The translations under genes and the position numbers were made by a program. From positions 186,001 through 250,000 of the forward strand of contig NZ_FTMZ01000001.1 of the NCBI RefSeq assembly GCF_900156335.1: a DNA stretch of 64,000 nucleotides, in the 5' to 3' direction. Source of the DNA: Sphaerotilus natans (GTDB lineage Bacteria; Pseudomonadota; Gammaproteobacteria; Burkholderiales; Burkholderiaceae_C). Shown one piece after another: positions 4,514 to 14,554 of this stretch (positions are counted from its first letter, which is position 1; the number at the start of each line of letters is the position of its first letter). The notes beneath the pieces are model-generated. The model was not told where the DNA came from. It was given only the letters and a program-made list of their open reading frames with translations, and did not search any database.

Positions 4514-8104
<3,591 letters not shown>

Positions 8105-8207
8105 CGCGGGATTGTAGGCAGCGGCTGTTGCAACTCGTGTCAGATGTCGTGATCTCTGCAACTTCGGGTGCCGGACTGGAAGTGGAAATAACGCAAAATG
8201 CCGCGCG

Positions 8208-8220
8208 ATTACCCCGTAAT
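8208..8220. promoter_or_regulatory. Palindrome ATTACCCCGTAAT upstream of the tubulin-like gene
   Basis: A perfect inverted repeat, ATTAC-CCC-GTAAT, in the 237-base gap between the divergent dnaE and tubulin-like genes. Its TTAC-N3-GTAA core recurs at 12978-12988 upstream of the MBOAT gene. It could be an operator for a small dimeric regulator. The role is inference. Confidence 0.4.
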
Positions 8221-8341
8221 TCCGGGGGCCATGCGGGGCGATCCGGCGGCGGGGGGCCGGCGGTTTGCCGGGACCATAGCGACCGCCGGGCGGCAGTGCT
8301 GCCGCAACCGGCATGACGACATTGCTGGATACGACGCTGAC

Positions 8342-11281
8342 ATGAATCATCTGTATCTCGGGCTCGGGGGGGCCGGTGTCCGGGTATGGCAGGCTCTGTG
8401 CCGCAGGCTGGCCTGCCGCATCGAGCCCGCCGGTCGCCGCGCGGTGCTGGAGCCGCTGCTGATCGACACCGATCCGAAGGAGTTCCGGGACGATGCGCCC
8501 GGCTGGCGCCATCTTGGCAGCAGTCTGGTGCCGCCGGCCCCGCAGCGGCTGCTGCTGGGCGCCAGCGCCGCCGAGCTGCATGCGCTGCTGCGCGCTCGGC
8601 CTGAGCTGCGCGCCTGTCTGGCGCTCGAGGGCCTCGACTGGGAGGCGCGGCTGCTCGAGCTCGGTGCCTTCGATGCGCCGCTGTCGCAGGTGGCGGCCCG
8701 GCTGCCGGGCTGGCCCTCGCGCCGGCTCGGCCGGCTGCTGCTGGCGCACGGCCAAGGGCGGGTGCGGCTGGCGCTCGATGCGGTCTCGCAGGCGCTGCAG
8801 GCCCGCCACACGCATCCGTCGCTGACGCTGCATCTGGTGGTCCAGCTCGGCGGGGCCACCGGCGCGGGTCTGCTGATCGACCTGCTGCAGCTGCTGCGCC
8901 AGCATCCGCCAGCCACCCGCTGCAGCGTGCATCTGCATGCGCTGCTGCCGCAGGACGACACCGCCGCCGGCCGGCCCGCGCCGCTGGCCGAGGTCCAGGC
9001 CTATGCGGTGCTGCGCGAGCTGCAGGCCGCCGCGCAGGAGGGTCTGTTCGAGCTGTGCCTGCTGTCGGCGCGCACCGACGAGCGCGGCCTGCAGCCGCTG
9101 GACGCGGCCGGACGCGAGCAGCGCCTGGCCGACTGGATCTTCCAGCGGGTCAGCGGCGAGCCGGAGTGGCTGACGCCGCCGCGCGCCGCGGGCCAGGCCG
9201 CCCGCCGGGGCGAGTTCGCCGCCTTCGGCCTGGCCGAGCGCACGGCCGACCGGGTCGCGCTGCGTAGCCATCTGAGCCATGAGCTGCTGCTGCGGCTGCT
9301 GGCCCAGCTGCGCTACAACCACTGGCGCCCGGGCCTGGGCTTTGTCACCCATCCGCGCCCGGTGCCGGTCGAGGCGATGGAATCGATGGAGGCGCTGCTG
9401 GCCGGCTGGGGCCTGAGCGAGGCGCATCTGCAGCTGGCCGCACCGCTGTCCGAGATCGACGGCGACAGTCCGCCGGGCACGCCGATCGAGCAGGAATGGC
9501 AGGCGCTGGAGGCGCACTACCGGCAGCTGATCGATCTGGTCGCGCCGGCCCGGCGCGCCACCGAGCTGCGGCGCCTGTTCGAGCAGGGGCTGGAGGAGCG
9601 CTTCCGCGGCCAAGGCATCGATGCAGCCTTCGATCTGCCCGACCATGCGCTGCGCCGCCGCGCGGTGGTGGTGCGCCAGCGGGTCGAGTCGACGCTGTGG
9701 GAGGACTGGCGCGAGGGTCGGCGCGCGCTGCATGAGTGCGGTCAGCTGCTGGCGGCGGTGCTGGCCGATCTGGCTGACCGTGTCGAGCCGCTGCGCCAGG
9801 AGCAGCACGGGCTGGAGACCCAGGCCGCGCTGCTGTGGCAGCAGATCGAGGCGGCCGAGCAGGCCGCCGCGGTGCGTCCGGGCATGCTGGCGCGGCTGCG
9901 GGGCCAGACCGCGCAGGTCGATGTCGAGGCGCTGATCGAGCTGCTGCGCGAGTACGCGCTGGCGCGCACCCGCTCGGCGGCGGTCACGCTGACGCTGCGG
10001 CTGGTTGCCGAGATCGAGGCGCAGCTCACCACGCTGCAGGGCATGATCGACGCGGGCGAGATGGAGCTGGCCGCGCTGGTCGAGACCACCGATGCGGCCG
10101 CCGCCGCCGCGCTGCCGCCGGCCCGGCCGGAGGCCGGCGAGTCCCGGCTGGACACGCGCGAGCTGCTCAACCCCTGGCGCCAGCAGCTCATCACCCGCGA
10201 GACCATGCAGCGCGAGCATCTGCGGGTGCTGCGCGCCGGCCTGTTCGCCCGGCTCGGCGAGCAGGCGAGCTTCCGCATCTTCGCGCAGCGCATCGGCGAG
10301 GCGGCCACCTGCGACGCGCTGCTGGCGGCCTGTGCGCAGCGCCTGCCGCCGGCGCAGCTTCAGCCGGTGGTCGCGGGGGCCTGGGACGCCTGGCTGGCCG
10401 GGCTGCAGGCAGAGCCCGAGCGGCTGGCGCGCGAGCAGGCGGCGCTGCGCGCGCAGGCGGCGGTCTCGCTGCTGTGGTCGTCTGAGCAGGCGCCCGGCGC
10501 CAGCATCCAGGAATGCCTGAGGGTGCCGGCGCTGCCGGAGCCCGGTGACGCAGTGAGCGCCGATGTCGACGAGGACGAGGGCGGCGGCGGCATCGCGGCG
10601 CGGGCCGTGCCGACGCTGCAGCCAGCGGACCTGGCCCGGCTGCTGCGCCGGCCCGGCGGCGCCGGCACCGCGCCGACGCTGCAGATGCGCGCCGAAGGCG
10701 AGGGCGCGCTGGTGCTGATACGCCTGGTGCGCGGCCTGCCGCTGCAGGCGCTGCGCCCGGTGCAGGAACTGCACCGGCTGCATGAGGCGCATCGGCTGCA
10801 GGCGGGGCGCGCGGCGCTGTGGCTGCAGCTCGACGAGGCGGCCTGCCTGCCCGAGCTGCTGGCGGTCGACGTGCAGGCGCAGCAGGCGCGTGCGCGCACC
10901 GTCGTGCTGCTGGCCGAGGCGCTGGGCCTGCTGCGCCACGAGCCCGAGCCGCTGACCGGCGCGCCGGTGCTGGTGCATGTCAGCCTCGATGCCGACGGCT
11001 TCGAGATCGCCCGGGTGCGGCTCGGTCGCGATCCGCTCGAGGCGGTCGACCAGGCCCGCGAGCGGGTGCTGCATGATCTTTTTGATGAGGTCTGCGCCGA
11101 GCTGCAGTCCGGTCGCCACGGCTCGCCCGAGGCGATCGCCGGCTTGCGCGACCGCATGCGCGACCGCATCGAGATGCTGCGCCGGCAGTCGCCGCCCACC
11201 CAGTGGGACACCATCAGTCGCGACTGGAACGAAGCCGCCCGCGAGGCGATGAAGCTGATCCGTCAGGAATGCCCCCGATGA
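8342..11281 (+). CDS. Tubulin-like (Tub_2-type) GTPase-fold protein
   Basis: 979 residues from ATG 8342. The first residues give LYLGLGGAGVRVWQAL, matching the glycine-rich nucleotide loop that opens FtsZ/tubulin domains. At residues 170-176 is GGATGAG, the tubulin signature GGTGxG with one Thr changed to Ala, followed by LLIDLLQLLRQ. This pattern fits the large bacterial tubulin-like proteins (Pfam Tub_2) rather than FtsZ. The remaining 700 residues are helical, Leu/Ala/Arg-rich, with coiled-coil-like stretches around 470-510. The gene ends in an ATGA overlap with the next gene, so the two products are probably made together. I found no division or plasmid genes nearby. GTPase activity and filament formation are inference. 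Confidence 0.75.
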   Translation: MNHLYLGLGGAGVRVWQALCRRLACRIEPAGRRAVLEPLLIDTDPKEFRDDAPGWRHLGSSLVPPAPQRLLLGASAAELHALLRARPELRACLALEGLDWEARLLELGAFDAPLSQVAARLPGWPSRRLGRLLLAHGQGRVRLALDAVSQALQARHTHPSLTLHLVVQLGGATGAGLLIDLLQLLRQHPPATRCSVHLHALLPQDDTAAGRPAPLAEVQAYAVLRELQAAAQEGLFELCLLSARTDERGLQPLDAAGREQRLADWIFQRVSGEPEWLTPPRAAGQAARRGEFAAFGLAERTADRVALRSHLSHELLLRLLAQLRYNHWRPGLGFVTHPRPVPVEAMESMEALLAGWGLSEAHLQLAAPLSEIDGDSPPGTPIEQEWQALEAHYRQLIDLVAPARRATELRRLFEQGLEERFRGQGIDAAFDLPDHALRRRAVVVRQRVESTLWEDWREGRRALHECGQLLAAVLADLADRVEPLRQEQHGLETQAALLWQQIEAAEQAAAVRPGMLARLRGQTAQVDVEALIELLREYALARTRSAAVTLTLRLVAEIEAQLTTLQGMIDAGEMELAALVETTDAAAAAALPPARPEAGESRLDTRELLNPWRQQLITRETMQREHLRVLRAGLFARLGEQASFRIFAQRIGEAATCDALLAACAQRLPPAQLQPVVAGAWDAWLAGLQAEPERLAREQAALRAQAAVSLLWSSEQAPGASIQECLRVPALPEPGDAVSADVDEDEGGGGIAARAVPTLQPADLARLLRRPGGAGTAPTLQMRAEGEGALVLIRLVRGLPLQALRPVQELHRLHEAHRLQAGRAALWLQLDEAACLPELLAVDVQAQQARARTVVLLAEALGLLRHEPEPLTGAPVLVHVSLDADGFEIARVRLGRDPLEAVDQARERVLHDLFDEVCAELQSGRHGSPEAIAGLRDRMRDRIEMLRRQSPPTQWDTISRDWNEAAREAMKLIRQECPR

Positions 11282-12894
11282 GCCGTGCTGTCTGCACCAA
11301 TCTGCCCGCCGCCTGCAGCAAGGCGGCTTCCCGTGCGCTGCTGCCGCTGAAGTCACCGGACGATCGCTGCCCGGAATGCGGCGCCGCGCTGCTGCCGATC
11401 GATGCGGCGGTCGAGGCCTCGCCGGCCGGCGCAGCGCGCTGGCTGGTCCCGGTCGTCGGCGTCGTGCTGGTGGCCACGGCGGGCTTCTTCCTGTCGGGGC
11501 TGGGTGGCAAGTCGGCTTCGGAGTCCGGCGTGCGGGCCGGGGCGGGCGCCGGGCTGGTCACCCAGGCGGGCGCGACGCTCGAAGGTCAGCCGCCTGCCGC
11601 CGGCCTGCCCGCGACCCTGACGCTGCATGGCGCCGCGCTGCTGGGCCCGGACCTGATGGCCGAGCTGGTCCAGGCTTTCCTGCGCGCCGACGGTCTGAAC
11701 GATGCGCGCCGGCCGGACCCGACCGTGCCGCTGCTGGTGGCGCGCACCTCCGCCGGCGCACGGCTCGAGTTCCGGCTCGATCCGGCGCTCTCGGTCTCGG
11801 GTGCTGCCGGGCTGCGGCGGGTCTCGGTGCTGGGTGACGACATCGGCGTCGACGACATCACCCTCGGCCTGGACGCGCTGGCGGTGGTGGTCCATCCGGA
11901 CAGCCCGCTGCGCTCGCTGACGCCGGGGCAGCTGCGCCAGCGCCTGCTCGGCCGCGCCGGCCGGGCGGATGCGGTGCACCTGCCGGCCGATCCCGCACTG
12001 CAGGCGCTGGTGTCGCGCCAGCTGCTCGCTGGCGAGGGCCTGCCCACCGCGCTGCCCGCCCATGCCGACAGCCGTGAGCTGCTGAAGGCGGTGGCGGCCG
12101 ATCCTGAGGCCATCGGCCTGGTGCCGCTGGCCGAGGTCGGCACCGCGCGGGTGCTGCCGGTGGCCGATGCCTCGGGGGCGGCCTGGATGCCCGACGCGCA
12201 GACCCTGGCCGCCGAGCGCTATCCGCTGACGCACCGGGTGGTCATGCACCTGCCGGCGGGCTCGGACGCACGGCTGCAGCGCCTGGCCAGCTATCTGGCC
12301 GGGCCGGCGGCGCAGCAGCGCCTGGCCTCCCGGCTGGCGGTGCCGGCGGTGCCGCAGCTGCTGGCGGCCGGTCAGCCCGCCACCGCCGAGACCCTGCCGG
12401 CACCGCGCCTGCCGCGTGACCAGACCGCGCTGATCCGCCAGGCGCGGCTGCTGGGGGGGCGCATCGGCTTCGAGGCCGGCGCCGACACGCTCGATGCGGT
12501 GGCGCGTGCCGAGACCGAGCGGCTCGGCCGTCTGCTGGCGGCCGGCCAGATTCCGCGTGGCGCGGCGATTCTGGTGCTGGCCAGCGCCAACGATCCTGGC
12601 GGCTTCTGCGGCAACCGCACGCTGTCGGAGCGACGAGCTGCGGAGGTCGCCCGGGTGCTGGGCGAGCTCGGGGTGAAGGTCGATGTGGTGCGCGGCATCG
12701 GTCGCCTCGGTCCGGCCGGGCTGGACGCGACGCCGGTGGCCACGATGGAGCGTCGTGCCGAGATCTGGATCAGCGAGACGCCGCTGCGCCAGCCGCCGCC
12801 CTTCCGCTGCTCGCCTGGACCGGGGCGGGCCGGGGAGGGGGCAGCGGAGGGTGCCACCCCGGTGGGGGCCTCGGCGGCTGCATCGGCCTCATGA
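11278..12894 (+). CDS. Zinc-ribbon/TM/binding-protein/OmpA fusion, partner of the tubulin-like protein
   Basis: 538 residues. Residues 6-34 hold Cys6, Cys13, Cys31 and Cys34 (the last pair as CPECG), a likely zinc ribbon facing the cytoplasm. Residues 55-75 are a membrane helix (WLVPVVGVVLVATAGFFL). From about 105 to 370 is a PstS-like periplasmic binding-protein fold (LTLHGAALLGPDLMAELV; LAVVVHPDSPLRSL; IGLVPLAEVG). The C-terminal region carries an OmpA-like peptidoglycan-binding motif (GFCGNRTLSERRAAEVARVL ... ERRAEIWI). The tail is low complexity. The layout would join a cytoplasmic module to the cell wall through the inner membrane. The start overlaps the tubulin-like stop by 4 bases. Confidence 0.75.
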   Translation: MSRAVCTNLPAACSKAASRALLPLKSPDDRCPECGAALLPIDAAVEASPAGAARWLVPVVGVVLVATAGFFLSGLGGKSASESGVRAGAGAGLVTQAGATLEGQPPAAGLPATLTLHGAALLGPDLMAELVQAFLRADGLNDARRPDPTVPLLVARTSAGARLEFRLDPALSVSGAAGLRRVSVLGDDIGVDDITLGLDALAVVVHPDSPLRSLTPGQLRQRLLGRAGRADAVHLPADPALQALVSRQLLAGEGLPTALPAHADSRELLKAVAADPEAIGLVPLAEVGTARVLPVADASGAAWMPDAQTLAAERYPLTHRVVMHLPAGSDARLQRLASYLAGPAAQQRLASRLAVPAVPQLLAAGQPATAETLPAPRLPRDQTALIRQARLLGGRIGFEAGADTLDAVARAETERLGRLLAAGQIPRGAAILVLASANDPGGFCGNRTLSERRAAEVARVLGELGVKVDVVRGIGRLGPAGLDATPVATMERRAEIWISETPLRQPPPFRCSPGPGRAGEGAAEGATPVGASAAASAS

Positions 12895-12976
12895 CGGGGC
12901 ATCCTGCGCGATCTCTGCTCCGGTCGTGATCTCTTTACACCGCCTGCCTAGGGGGTAAGGGCTAATGAATCACGCT

Positions 12977-12989
12977 TTTACATTGTAAA
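12977..12989. promoter_or_regulatory. Palindrome TTTACATTGTAAA with nearby -10-like TATGAT
   Basis: An inverted repeat in an AT-rich island (12962-13014) that contrasts with the GC-rich surroundings, ahead of the MBOAT gene. A TATGAT -10-like box lies at 12996-13001. The TTAC-N3-GTAA core is shared with the palindrome at 8208-8220. Likely promoter and operator of the MBOAT unit; by pattern only. Confidence 0.45.
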
Positions 12990-13108
12990 TCTCTTTATGA
13001 TTATTTTCATTTAAGGGGGCGGGTCAGCACAAGATCCGGGTCACAAGCCAAGAAAACGGGGCGCAATCGGGCGACCTCGCGGCCCCCTCCATCCTGTTCG
13101 GGGGGGTC

Positions 13109-14554
13109 ATGCTTTTCAACTCGGCGGAATTCATCCTGCTGTTCCTGCCGGTGGTGCTGGTGATCTATCACGCGCTGCCGCACCGTGGACAGAACATCTT
13201 TCTGGTGCTGGCCAGCTGCGTGTTCTATGCCAGCTGGGACTGGCGCTTCCTGCTGCCGCTGCTGTTCACCACCGGGGTCGACTACCAGATCTCGCTGAAG
13301 CTGGCCGAGTCGGTGCGCCGCGGCGAGCCCCAGCAGGTGCGCAAGCGCTGGATGCAGCTGAGCATCGCGCTGAACCTGGGCCTGCTGGGCTTCTTCAAGT
13401 ACGCCAACTTCTTCGCCCAGTCGGCGGTCGATGCCGGCCGGTTGCTCGGGCTGGACTGGTCGCTGCCGGTGATGGAGATCGTGCTGCCGGTGGCGATCTC
13501 GTTCTACACCTTCCAGGCGATGTCCTACACGATCGACGTCTACCGGGGCGAGCTGCATCCCTGCGACTCGTTCTGGGACTTCTTCCTGGCGGTGCTGTAC
13601 TTCCCGCATCTGGTGGCCGGTCCGATCCAGCGCGCCTCGACGCTGCTGCCGCAGGTGATCCGCCCGCGCACGATGCAGCGCGACGTGGTGATCGAGGGCC
13701 TGCACCTGATGCTGTGGGGCTACTTCAAGAAGGTCTACATCGCCGACAACCTGACGCCCTGGGTCGACGCGGCCTTCCGCGCCGGCGCCACGCCCGACAC
13801 CGCGACGGTGGTGACCGGCGTGCTGGCCTTCACCTTCCAGATCTACTGCGACTTCTCGGGCTACACCGACATCGCGCGCGGCGTGGCGCGGCTGATGGGC
13901 TTCGAGTTCACGCTGAACTTCCGTCTGCCGTACTTCGCCACCAACCCGTCGGACTTCTGGCGGCGCTGGCACATCAGCCTGTCGAGCTGGCTGGCCGACT
14001 ACCTGTACAAGCCGCTGGGCGGCAACCGCGGCTCGCGCTGGATGACCTGCCGCAACCTGATGATCACGATGCTGCTGGGCGGCCTGTGGCACGGCGCGGC
14101 GTGGAATTTCGTGCTCTGGGGCTTCTACCACGGCCTGATCCTGGTGCTGCACCGCCTGGCGCAGCCGGCGCTCGAGCGCATCGGCCAGCGATTCGAGGCG
14201 ATGCCGAGCCTGTGGCTGACGCTCCGCATCGCGACGATGTTCCTCATGACCTGCTACGGCTGGCTGCTGTTTCGCGCCACCTCGCTGGAGCAGATCGCCT
14301 CGATGACGCATCTGCTGCTGGTGCCGCAGGGCGGCTTCGACTGGGCGCCGCTGGGCGAGGTGCTGAAGCTGGTCGCGCCGCTGCTGCTGGTGCAGTGGGT
14401 GCAGTGGCGCACGGGCGAGCTGTACTTCTCCCGGCTGCTCTGGGGCGGGCGTCTGCGAGGCGCGCCGCTGCGGGTGACGGGCTACGCCGTCATGGCCTAT
14501 CTGTGCCTGTTCCTGGGCGGCCAGCCGCAGTCCTTCGCCTACTTCCACTTCTGA
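13109..14554 (+). CDS. MBOAT-family O-acyltransferase (AlgI-like)
   Basis: 481 residues with many membrane helices. The start MLFNSAEFILLFLPVVL and the block VLASCVFYASWDW are typical of the AlgI/PatA/DltB-like group. Conserved MBOAT features include SFYTFQAMSYTIDVYRGE, FPHLVAGPIQRAS, DFWRRWHISLSSWLADYLY and the catalytic histidine region LLGGLWHGAAWNFVLWG. These proteins move acetyl groups across the inner membrane onto exported polysaccharides or cell-wall sugars. The next gene, an SGNH protein 30 bases downstream, is the expected periplasmic transfer partner. No polysaccharide synthesis genes are in the window, so the acceptor is unknown. Confidence 0.93.
   Translation: MLFNSAEFILLFLPVVLVIYHALPHRGQNIFLVLASCVFYASWDWRFLLPLLFTTGVDYQISLKLAESVRRGEPQQVRKRWMQLSIALNLGLLGFFKYANFFAQSAVDAGRLLGLDWSLPVMEIVLPVAISFYTFQAMSYTIDVYRGELHPCDSFWDFFLAVLYFPHLVAGPIQRASTLLPQVIRPRTMQRDVVIEGLHLMLWGYFKKVYIADNLTPWVDAAFRAGATPDTATVVTGVLAFTFQIYCDFSGYTDIARGVARLMGFEFTLNFRLPYFATNPSDFWRRWHISLSSWLADYLYKPLGGNRGSRWMTCRNLMITMLLGGLWHGAAWNFVLWGFYHGLILVLHRLAQPALERIGQRFEAMPSLWLTLRIATMFLMTCYGWLLFRATSLEQIASMTHLLLVPQGGFDWAPLGEVLKLVAPLLLVQWVQWRTGELYFSRLLWGGRLRGAPLRVTGYAVMAYLCLFLGGQPQSFAYFHF

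Follow-up and report, generated by a model that had tools for sequence, protein, structure and literature searches.

What could a tubulin-like protein be doing when its gene overlaps that of a partner with a membrane helix and two domains of periplasmic type? This question is raised by a gene pair in a 64,000-nucleotide stretch of the Sphaerotilus natans genome (contig NZ_FTMZ01000001.1, positions 186,001 to 250,000; hereafter the window). The pair is a variant of the known, sparsely studied FtsZl1 family (Tubulin_2, PF13809), which was described in 2010 by Makarova and Koonin, who also reported OmpA, vWA, GTPase and kinase genes in its neighbourhood (PMC2875224). What is new is that a separate zinc-ribbon anchor and separate solute-binding or OmpA genes stand beside the same tubulin subfamily in other bacteria, and that, as read from their sequences, the two copies of the pair carried by the window genome have decayed reciprocally. 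We give a probability of roughly one half to the reading that the pair forms a two-protein trans-envelope FtsZl1 module whose window copy would serve mainly as a wall-tethered scaffold or anchor, not as a ligand sensor. Comparisons were made mainly within the Sphaerotilus/Leptothrix group (13 genomes, here called the genus); genomes carry G-numbers, the window genome being G000, and loci carry L-numbers.

Both profile and fold place the first protein in the tubulin superfamily. Residues 4-237 match Tubulin_2 with an E-value of 1.3e-14 (54.7 bits against a cut-off of 27), and a model built with AlphaFold2 on seven sequences (mean predicted local distance difference test score, pLDDT, 67.7) has E. 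coli FtsZ as its top Foldseek match (E 3.3e-4), followed by CetZ, TubZ and tubulins, with a probability of 1.00. Among the 50 chains listed by Foldseek, 47 are tubulin-superfamily members and three are not; TM-scores by target are about 0.3-0.5, and only two matches have E below 0.001. The original prediction, made from the sequence alone, had named glycine motifs of the tubulin/FtsZ type and proposed structure prediction as a check: T1 and T4 are indeed present, each with substitutions, and the model has a tubulin fold. A chance origin of the glycine motifs is ruled out by the profile score together with the Foldseek matches. The model's secondary structure and the Foldseek alignments recover an FtsZ-like domain, a long helical region and a C-terminal domain, the layout that, along with an association with OmpA proteins, is described for FtsZl1 (PMC2875224). 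NCBIfam assigns no family to the protein, and solved structures searched by sequence gave nothing but flavodoxins and their fusions, at E 0.6-1. The fold of the nucleotide domain is that of FtsZ, CetZ and TubZ (PDB 6unx, 3zid and 3v3t), from which the window protein differs in sequence (11-15% identity in the alignments), in its much greater length and in its gene context; a Tubulin_2 group distinct from canonical FtsZ and tubulin has also been recognised (PMC9871819). A division or plasmid-partition tubulin is ruled out by family and context, the gene lying next to dnaE on a 368-kb contig at a site shared with other genus genomes. The contrast with such tubulins drawn in the original prediction fits, but the kind itself is not new, FtsZl1 having already been tied to OmpA-domain proteins (PMC2875224).

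The architecture first proposed for the partner, a chain running from a cytoplasmic zinc ribbon through one membrane helix to a periplasmic binding-protein fold and an OmpA domain, is borne out, though less strongly than stated for the two periplasmic domains. Its model (mean pLDDT 68.4) contains the zinc ribbon and the helix (Table 1) and recovers the OmpA-like fold, with Foldseek matches to OmpA, Pal, MotB and YfiB at target TM-scores of up to 0.75, and, less clearly, a PstS-like fold (a phosphate receptor of V. cholerae is matched at E 4.3e-5, target TM-score 0.37; pLDDT below 50 over residues 143-198). By sequence, both periplasmic domains of the window copy fall under their family cut-offs (PBP_like_2 14.2 bits against 27; PF00691 23 bits, E 1e-4, against 27.2) and have lost signature residues. 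The partner found no solved structure by sequence at a threshold of 0.01. In the OmpA-like domain the usual Asp is an Asn at 438 and Arg 453 is kept; the Asp-Arg spacing of 15 agrees with that of A. baumannii OmpA, in which D271 and R286 are presumably the residues that hold diaminopimelate. PstS-like and OmpA-like domains share a chain in the phosphate ABC transporter substrate-binding/OmpA family protein as well, the annotated name of one match (H4), and some phosphate-binding/OmpA relatives also have a zinc ribbon (L083, L069).

The two genes travel together. Tubulin homologues were found in 11 of 40 genomes, all of them in the genus, where two of the 13 genomes are without the pair; partner homologues were found in the same 11, with an additional match to the OmpA end in G015. 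All 16 tubulin copies of the genus adjoin a partner gene, including three cut by contig ends (the dnaE-site copy of G006 and both copies of G007) and that of G004, which is split over two frames; a search for the pair across genomes, proposed at the outset, therefore finds no separation of the two genes in the genus. The coordinates, the ATGA overlap and the two protein lengths are exact, and a 4-base overlap recurs in 14 of the 16 pairs and in a pair from Zoogloea, the exceptions being G007b (gap 65) and G009b (gap 35). Homologues favour the ATG at 8342 as the tubulin start over a longer open reading frame (ORF) from 8198. Trees of the two genes, with 13 tubulin and 15 partner rows from the genus, agree on three clades and place Zoogloea outside them, the branching among clades not being firmly resolved in the partner tree; the pair was thus duplicated as a unit. 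The window genome has two copies, of which the second (L045:8475-12367) lies near genes that, judged from their sequences only, resemble PHA synthase, acetate kinase and fabI.

Beyond the genus, the same pair occurs in a Zoogloea metagenome-assembled genome (MAG), and a genome from a different order carries it too. Tubulins of this type are rare, PF13809 matching in 10 of 399 genomes from the order, 5 of 369 from the class (4 above cut-off) and 5 of 299 from the phylum (again 4 above cut-off), and a genus-built tubulin profile in 3 of the 369 class genomes, with the window genome included in every count. A survey of the partner kept 80 loci (11 under 15 kb) from at least 586 relatives. A tubulin of this kind is encoded at seven, namely L060, L061, L063, L065 and L066 from Sphaerotilus or Leptothrix, L064 from a Pseudomonadota MAG and L062 from the Zoogloea MAG; none was found among the called genes and six frames of the other 73. 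The window partner thus differs from most phosphate-binding/OmpA relatives in being paired with FtsZl1, and also in the loss of its putative anion-site motifs.

Eight lineages of the same tubulin subfamily were compared for split versions of the partner, and a zinc ribbon-membrane chain adjoins the tubulin in seven of them. It is fused to PstS-like and OmpA-like domains in the genus, in Zoogloea and in G1061. In G733 and G1083 a separate zinc ribbon-membrane gene is followed by a TAXI-type solute-binding gene (assigned in G733 by Pfam NMT1_3 and NCBI TRAP_TAXI, and in G1083 read from sequence only); the G298 cluster (L158:4333-11682) holds a separate zinc ribbon-membrane gene, an OmpA-like gene (profile match) and a caspase gene (Peptidase_C14); and on a Paraburkholderia plasmid a zinc ribbon-membrane chain with TPR repeats lies beside the tubulin. 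Each of the four separate chains carries a hydrophobic stretch at about residues 53-81, as does a second small chain of G298, with scores of 2.09-2.47; the G298 chain (last Cys pair CxC) and the plasmid chain (Ser for Asn) lie outside the motif pattern and were scored by eye. Gene calls outside the genus are from our own caller, which yields antisense frames at several GC-rich places (for example at the window tubulin gene, L047, L056, L155 and L171), and such genes were read from ORF lists or by homology. TAXI-type (NMT1_3) genes recur near FtsZl1, both in this subfamily and at more distant FtsZl1 loci. Parts that are fused in some lineages and encoded side by side in others are a classic sign of a working complex, which is an argument from gene arrangement and not proof of contact. 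Domain content, pairing and these split versions all support the proposed link between a tubulin-superfamily protein and a membrane chain of wall-binding type.

The remaining lineage, G605 (L154:8734-14351), has no zinc ribbon chain; its FtsZl1 gene overlaps an AAA-TIR gene by ATGA, the TIR matches ThsB of PADLOC at E 1e-58, and the two genes may form a tubulin-TIR defence pair. With the caspase gene of G298, this arrangement invites the view that the pair is a conflict or regulated-death module, in which the chain across the envelope would detect damage or an invader and the assembly of FtsZl1 would set off an effector that in Sphaerotilus has been lost, is encoded elsewhere, or is the assembly itself. 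The window pair is like the conflict systems of Kaur 2020 in its tubulin with a C-terminal helical domain, its membrane component and its host; these systems are preponderant in multicellular prokaryotes (PMC7159879), and the Sphaerotilus-Leptothrix group forms sheaths (PMC13386937). It is unlike them in having no DO-GTPase, GAP1 or vWA gene among its five scanned neighbours (by Pfam dnaE, MCP, HI0933-like, MBOAT and GDSL), among which no kinase, other GTPase or effector gene was found either. An effector gene stands beside the tubulin in only two of the eight lineages, and neither window protein has a PADLOC match, which rules out a known defence system for them. We consider a conflict module an unlikely explanation. 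A phage origin finds no support, as a search of 50,697 phage records with the Zoogloea tubulin, not the window protein, gave no match.

Where the sequence constraint lies bears on a second alternative. Among the 13 genus tubulins, invariant positions number 14 of 345 in residues 1-345 versus 19 of 78 in the helical core, and among seven outside lineages positions with one residue at 85% or more number 119 of 345 in the nucleotide domain versus 12 of 78 in the core; as the thresholds differ, only the rankings inside each set are comparable. T1 reads GLGGTG in six of the outside lineages and GLGGSG in one, and T4 reads AGGTGSG in six and AGGTGGG in one, both loops of the window protein being slightly deviant. 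Six of 13 genus copies no longer have T1, and at E 0.01 PF13809 matches only 5 of the 13 scanned. Judged by these patterns, the tubulin of the genus seems to be drifting from a nucleotide switch to a scaffold. Makarova and Koonin proposed for FtsZl1 a membrane-remodelling or vesicle machine with dynamic GTP-driven filaments (PMC2875224), FtsZl1 function being inferred there and in PMC7159879 from gene context. Membership of the same family, the OmpA partner and the retention of T1 and T4 in the window clade would all suit such a machine, but the loss of T1 and the concentration of invariant positions outside the nucleotide domain would not, and neither would the single PF13809 match in the window genome nor the lack of vWA, kinase and GTPase genes among the scanned neighbours, genes that are frequent, though not universal, in FtsZl1 operons (PMC2875224). 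We rate this machine as somewhat less likely than a conflict module. The absence of such adjacent genes, the single fused chain and the eroding nucleotide domain are also what set the window pair apart from the FtsZl1 family as described (PMC2875224).

The original prediction had further suggested a possible response to a periplasmic ligand, and for the window copy this is not supported. Relative to 33 relatives, the window partner keeps 51 and has lost 62 of the 113 columns conserved at 85% or more, the losses including a Ser-Asn-Thr motif, a Ser-Gly-Thr motif and the Asp aligned with residue 174. These are present in 32-33 of the 33 relatives, and we take them to be the anion-holding residues of the PstS-like domain. 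A receptor that captures a periplasmic solute in its PstS-like domain and relays the signal to the tubulin is plausible in the second copy and in Zoogloea, given PBP_like_2 scores of 91.5 and 108.4 bits; with the score quoted above and the motifs lost or deleted in the window copy, we regard it as very improbable here. Since these motifs are gone, the window copy is most likely a wall-tethered scaffold or anchor.

The second copy provides the complementary picture. The GSNT and SGT motifs are found in nine of nine partners of the other two clades and in none of the six of the window clade. Window-clade tubulins keep T1 in five of five and T4 in four of five by pattern, the fifth (G009) reading GGTTGAA; in the second-copy tubulins of G000, G006 and G001 both loops are lost, and G009b has T1 only. 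The second-copy partner of G000 scores above both the PBP_like_2 and the OmpA cut-offs. Between G000 and G006, the ratio of non-synonymous to synonymous substitution rates (dN/dS) is 0.17 for the tubulin and 0.34 for the partner of the window copy (the latter over 185 codons, to a contig end), and 0.29 and 0.12 for those of the second; between G000 and G001 the corresponding values are 0.375 and 0.566, and 0.633 and 0.453. In both species pairs the half that keeps its motifs has the lower ratio and is thus the more constrained one. By this sequence record the copies have decayed reciprocally, the window copy keeping its tubulin loops and the second its PstS/OmpA half, and the two have probably divided the work. 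A decaying relic, with both copies losing function and the pair kept by chance, would explain the many lost signature residues, the split G004 gene and the higher ratios of the window partner and the second-copy tubulin against G001. We nevertheless find it improbable, as dN/dS is below 1 in every comparison, indicating purifying selection, the zinc-ribbon cysteines are invariant and the overlap is so widely kept.

In the scaffold or anchor reading, the 979-residue cytoplasmic protein would rely on its long helical core and C-terminal domain for assembly, the tubulin-type nucleotide domain being an optional switch. The partner, probably translated in coupling with the tubulin, would hold it at the inner membrane through the zinc ribbon, cross the membrane once and extend its OmpA-like domain towards peptidoglycan; in the ancestral partner, the PstS-like domain probably also bound a phosphate-like anion. 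The second copy, with an intact PstS/OmpA half and lost tubulin loops, would take the other share of the labour. Several observations weigh against this reading. Both structure models are of only moderate confidence, and with an Asn at 438 and a sub-cut-off OmpA score, wall binding may have been lost as well. The membrane helix is weak, under the threshold of 1.6, in two window-clade partners (G004, G009). The dnaE-site copy of S. hippei (G003) is nearly intact in both halves, and G002, G008 and G010 have a single copy with degenerate tubulin loops and no PF13809 match genome-wide, so that the nucleotide switch is not essential there. The reciprocal loss also rests on few independent events.

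A broader and more speculative extension, which we consider unlikely, is a wall-anchored tubulin alarm of multicellular bacteria, in which a trans-envelope receptor would signal the state of the periplasm or of the wall to assembled FtsZl1, and in relatives this assembly would drive TIR or caspase effectors; in the sheathed Sphaerotilus/Leptothrix group it would have been duplicated and split, with the nucleotide switch contributed by one copy and the receptor by the other to one mixed complex. A role in sheath making is only a guess, because the words tubulin, FtsZ and OmpA are absent from the accessible portions of a Leptothrix/Sphaerotilus genome paper (PMC13386937) and two genus genomes do without the pair. 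Our literature search found no paper on this gene pair, which the 2010 supplement of PMC2875224 may list. The pair strips an FtsZl1 system to two proteins, with the zinc ribbon-membrane helix chain as the likely anchor. Reciprocally decayed copies in one genome also amount to a natural separation-of-function experiment, hinting at which half each copy needs, and copy-by-copy deletion makes the division of labour testable.

Table 1. Features of the tubulin-partner pair (window positions) and TAXI-type genes at other FtsZl1 loci.
Feature	Location	Strand	Evidence
FtsZl1 / Tubulin_2 gene, 979 residues	8342..11281	+	PF13809 54.7 bits, Foldseek, genus relatives
T1 glycine loop GLGGAG, residues 7-12	8360..8377	+	
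T4 glycine loop GGATGAG, residues 170-176	8849..8869	+	
Helical core, residues 386-463	9497..9730	+	Most constrained part in genus: 19/78 positions invariant (13 members)
C-terminal alpha/beta domain, residues 843-979	10868..11278	+	12/137 positions invariant (13 genus members); modelled strands and helices
ATGA, tubulin stop overlapping partner start	11278..11281	+	Exact coordinates confirmed
Zinc ribbon - membrane helix - PstS-like - OmpA-like partner gene, 538 residues	11278..12894	+	
Zinc ribbon, C6 C13 C31 C34	11293..11379	+	Four Cys invariant in 15/15 genus sequences; pLDDT 91-95 by ten-residue block, residues 1-40
Single membrane helix, residues 56-74	11443..11499	+	Kyte-Doolittle mean 2.18; modelled helix 56-74
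Degenerate PstS-like domain, about residues 113-352	11614..12333	+	Foldseek to phosphate-binding proteins; SNT and SGT motifs lost
OmpA-like domain, residues 389-499	12442..12774	+	Foldseek to OmpA, Pal, YfiB, MotB; PF00691 sub-cut-off
TAXI-type gene	L155:9350-10462		Pfam
TAXI-type gene	L156:3855-4979		Pfam
TAXI-type gene	L172:1791-2828		Pfam
TAXI-type gene	L171:12707-14242		Sequence only

A promoter scan found none upstream of the pair and three sites downstream only (12977-13027), and the single terminator-like site, at 12907, does not stand above shuffled sequences. An antisense ORF of 2280 residues (window 4514-11356, minus strand) spans dnaE and the tubulin gene and is a high-GC artefact. 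DNA identity to G006 is 0.86-0.88 at window positions 10500-10800 and 11400-11700, most bins of the pair being at 0.95 or more, and synonymous divergence (dS) to G006 is 0.39 for the partner versus 0.11 for the tubulin gene; possible causes are recombination at these places or linkers that evolve fast. As originally described, the pair is flanked by dnaE, on the opposite strand, and by an MBOAT acyltransferase gene, with a GDSL-like gene also downstream. The dnaE site is common to several genus genomes and the downstream gene differs, which places the acyltransferase outside the unit. In L048, L050, L051 and L058 the gene after the pair is not MBOAT-like, and the dS of the window MBOAT gene (13109-14554) to G001 is 0.095, versus 0.33 for the tubulin gene; perhaps the MBOAT gene moved in recently.

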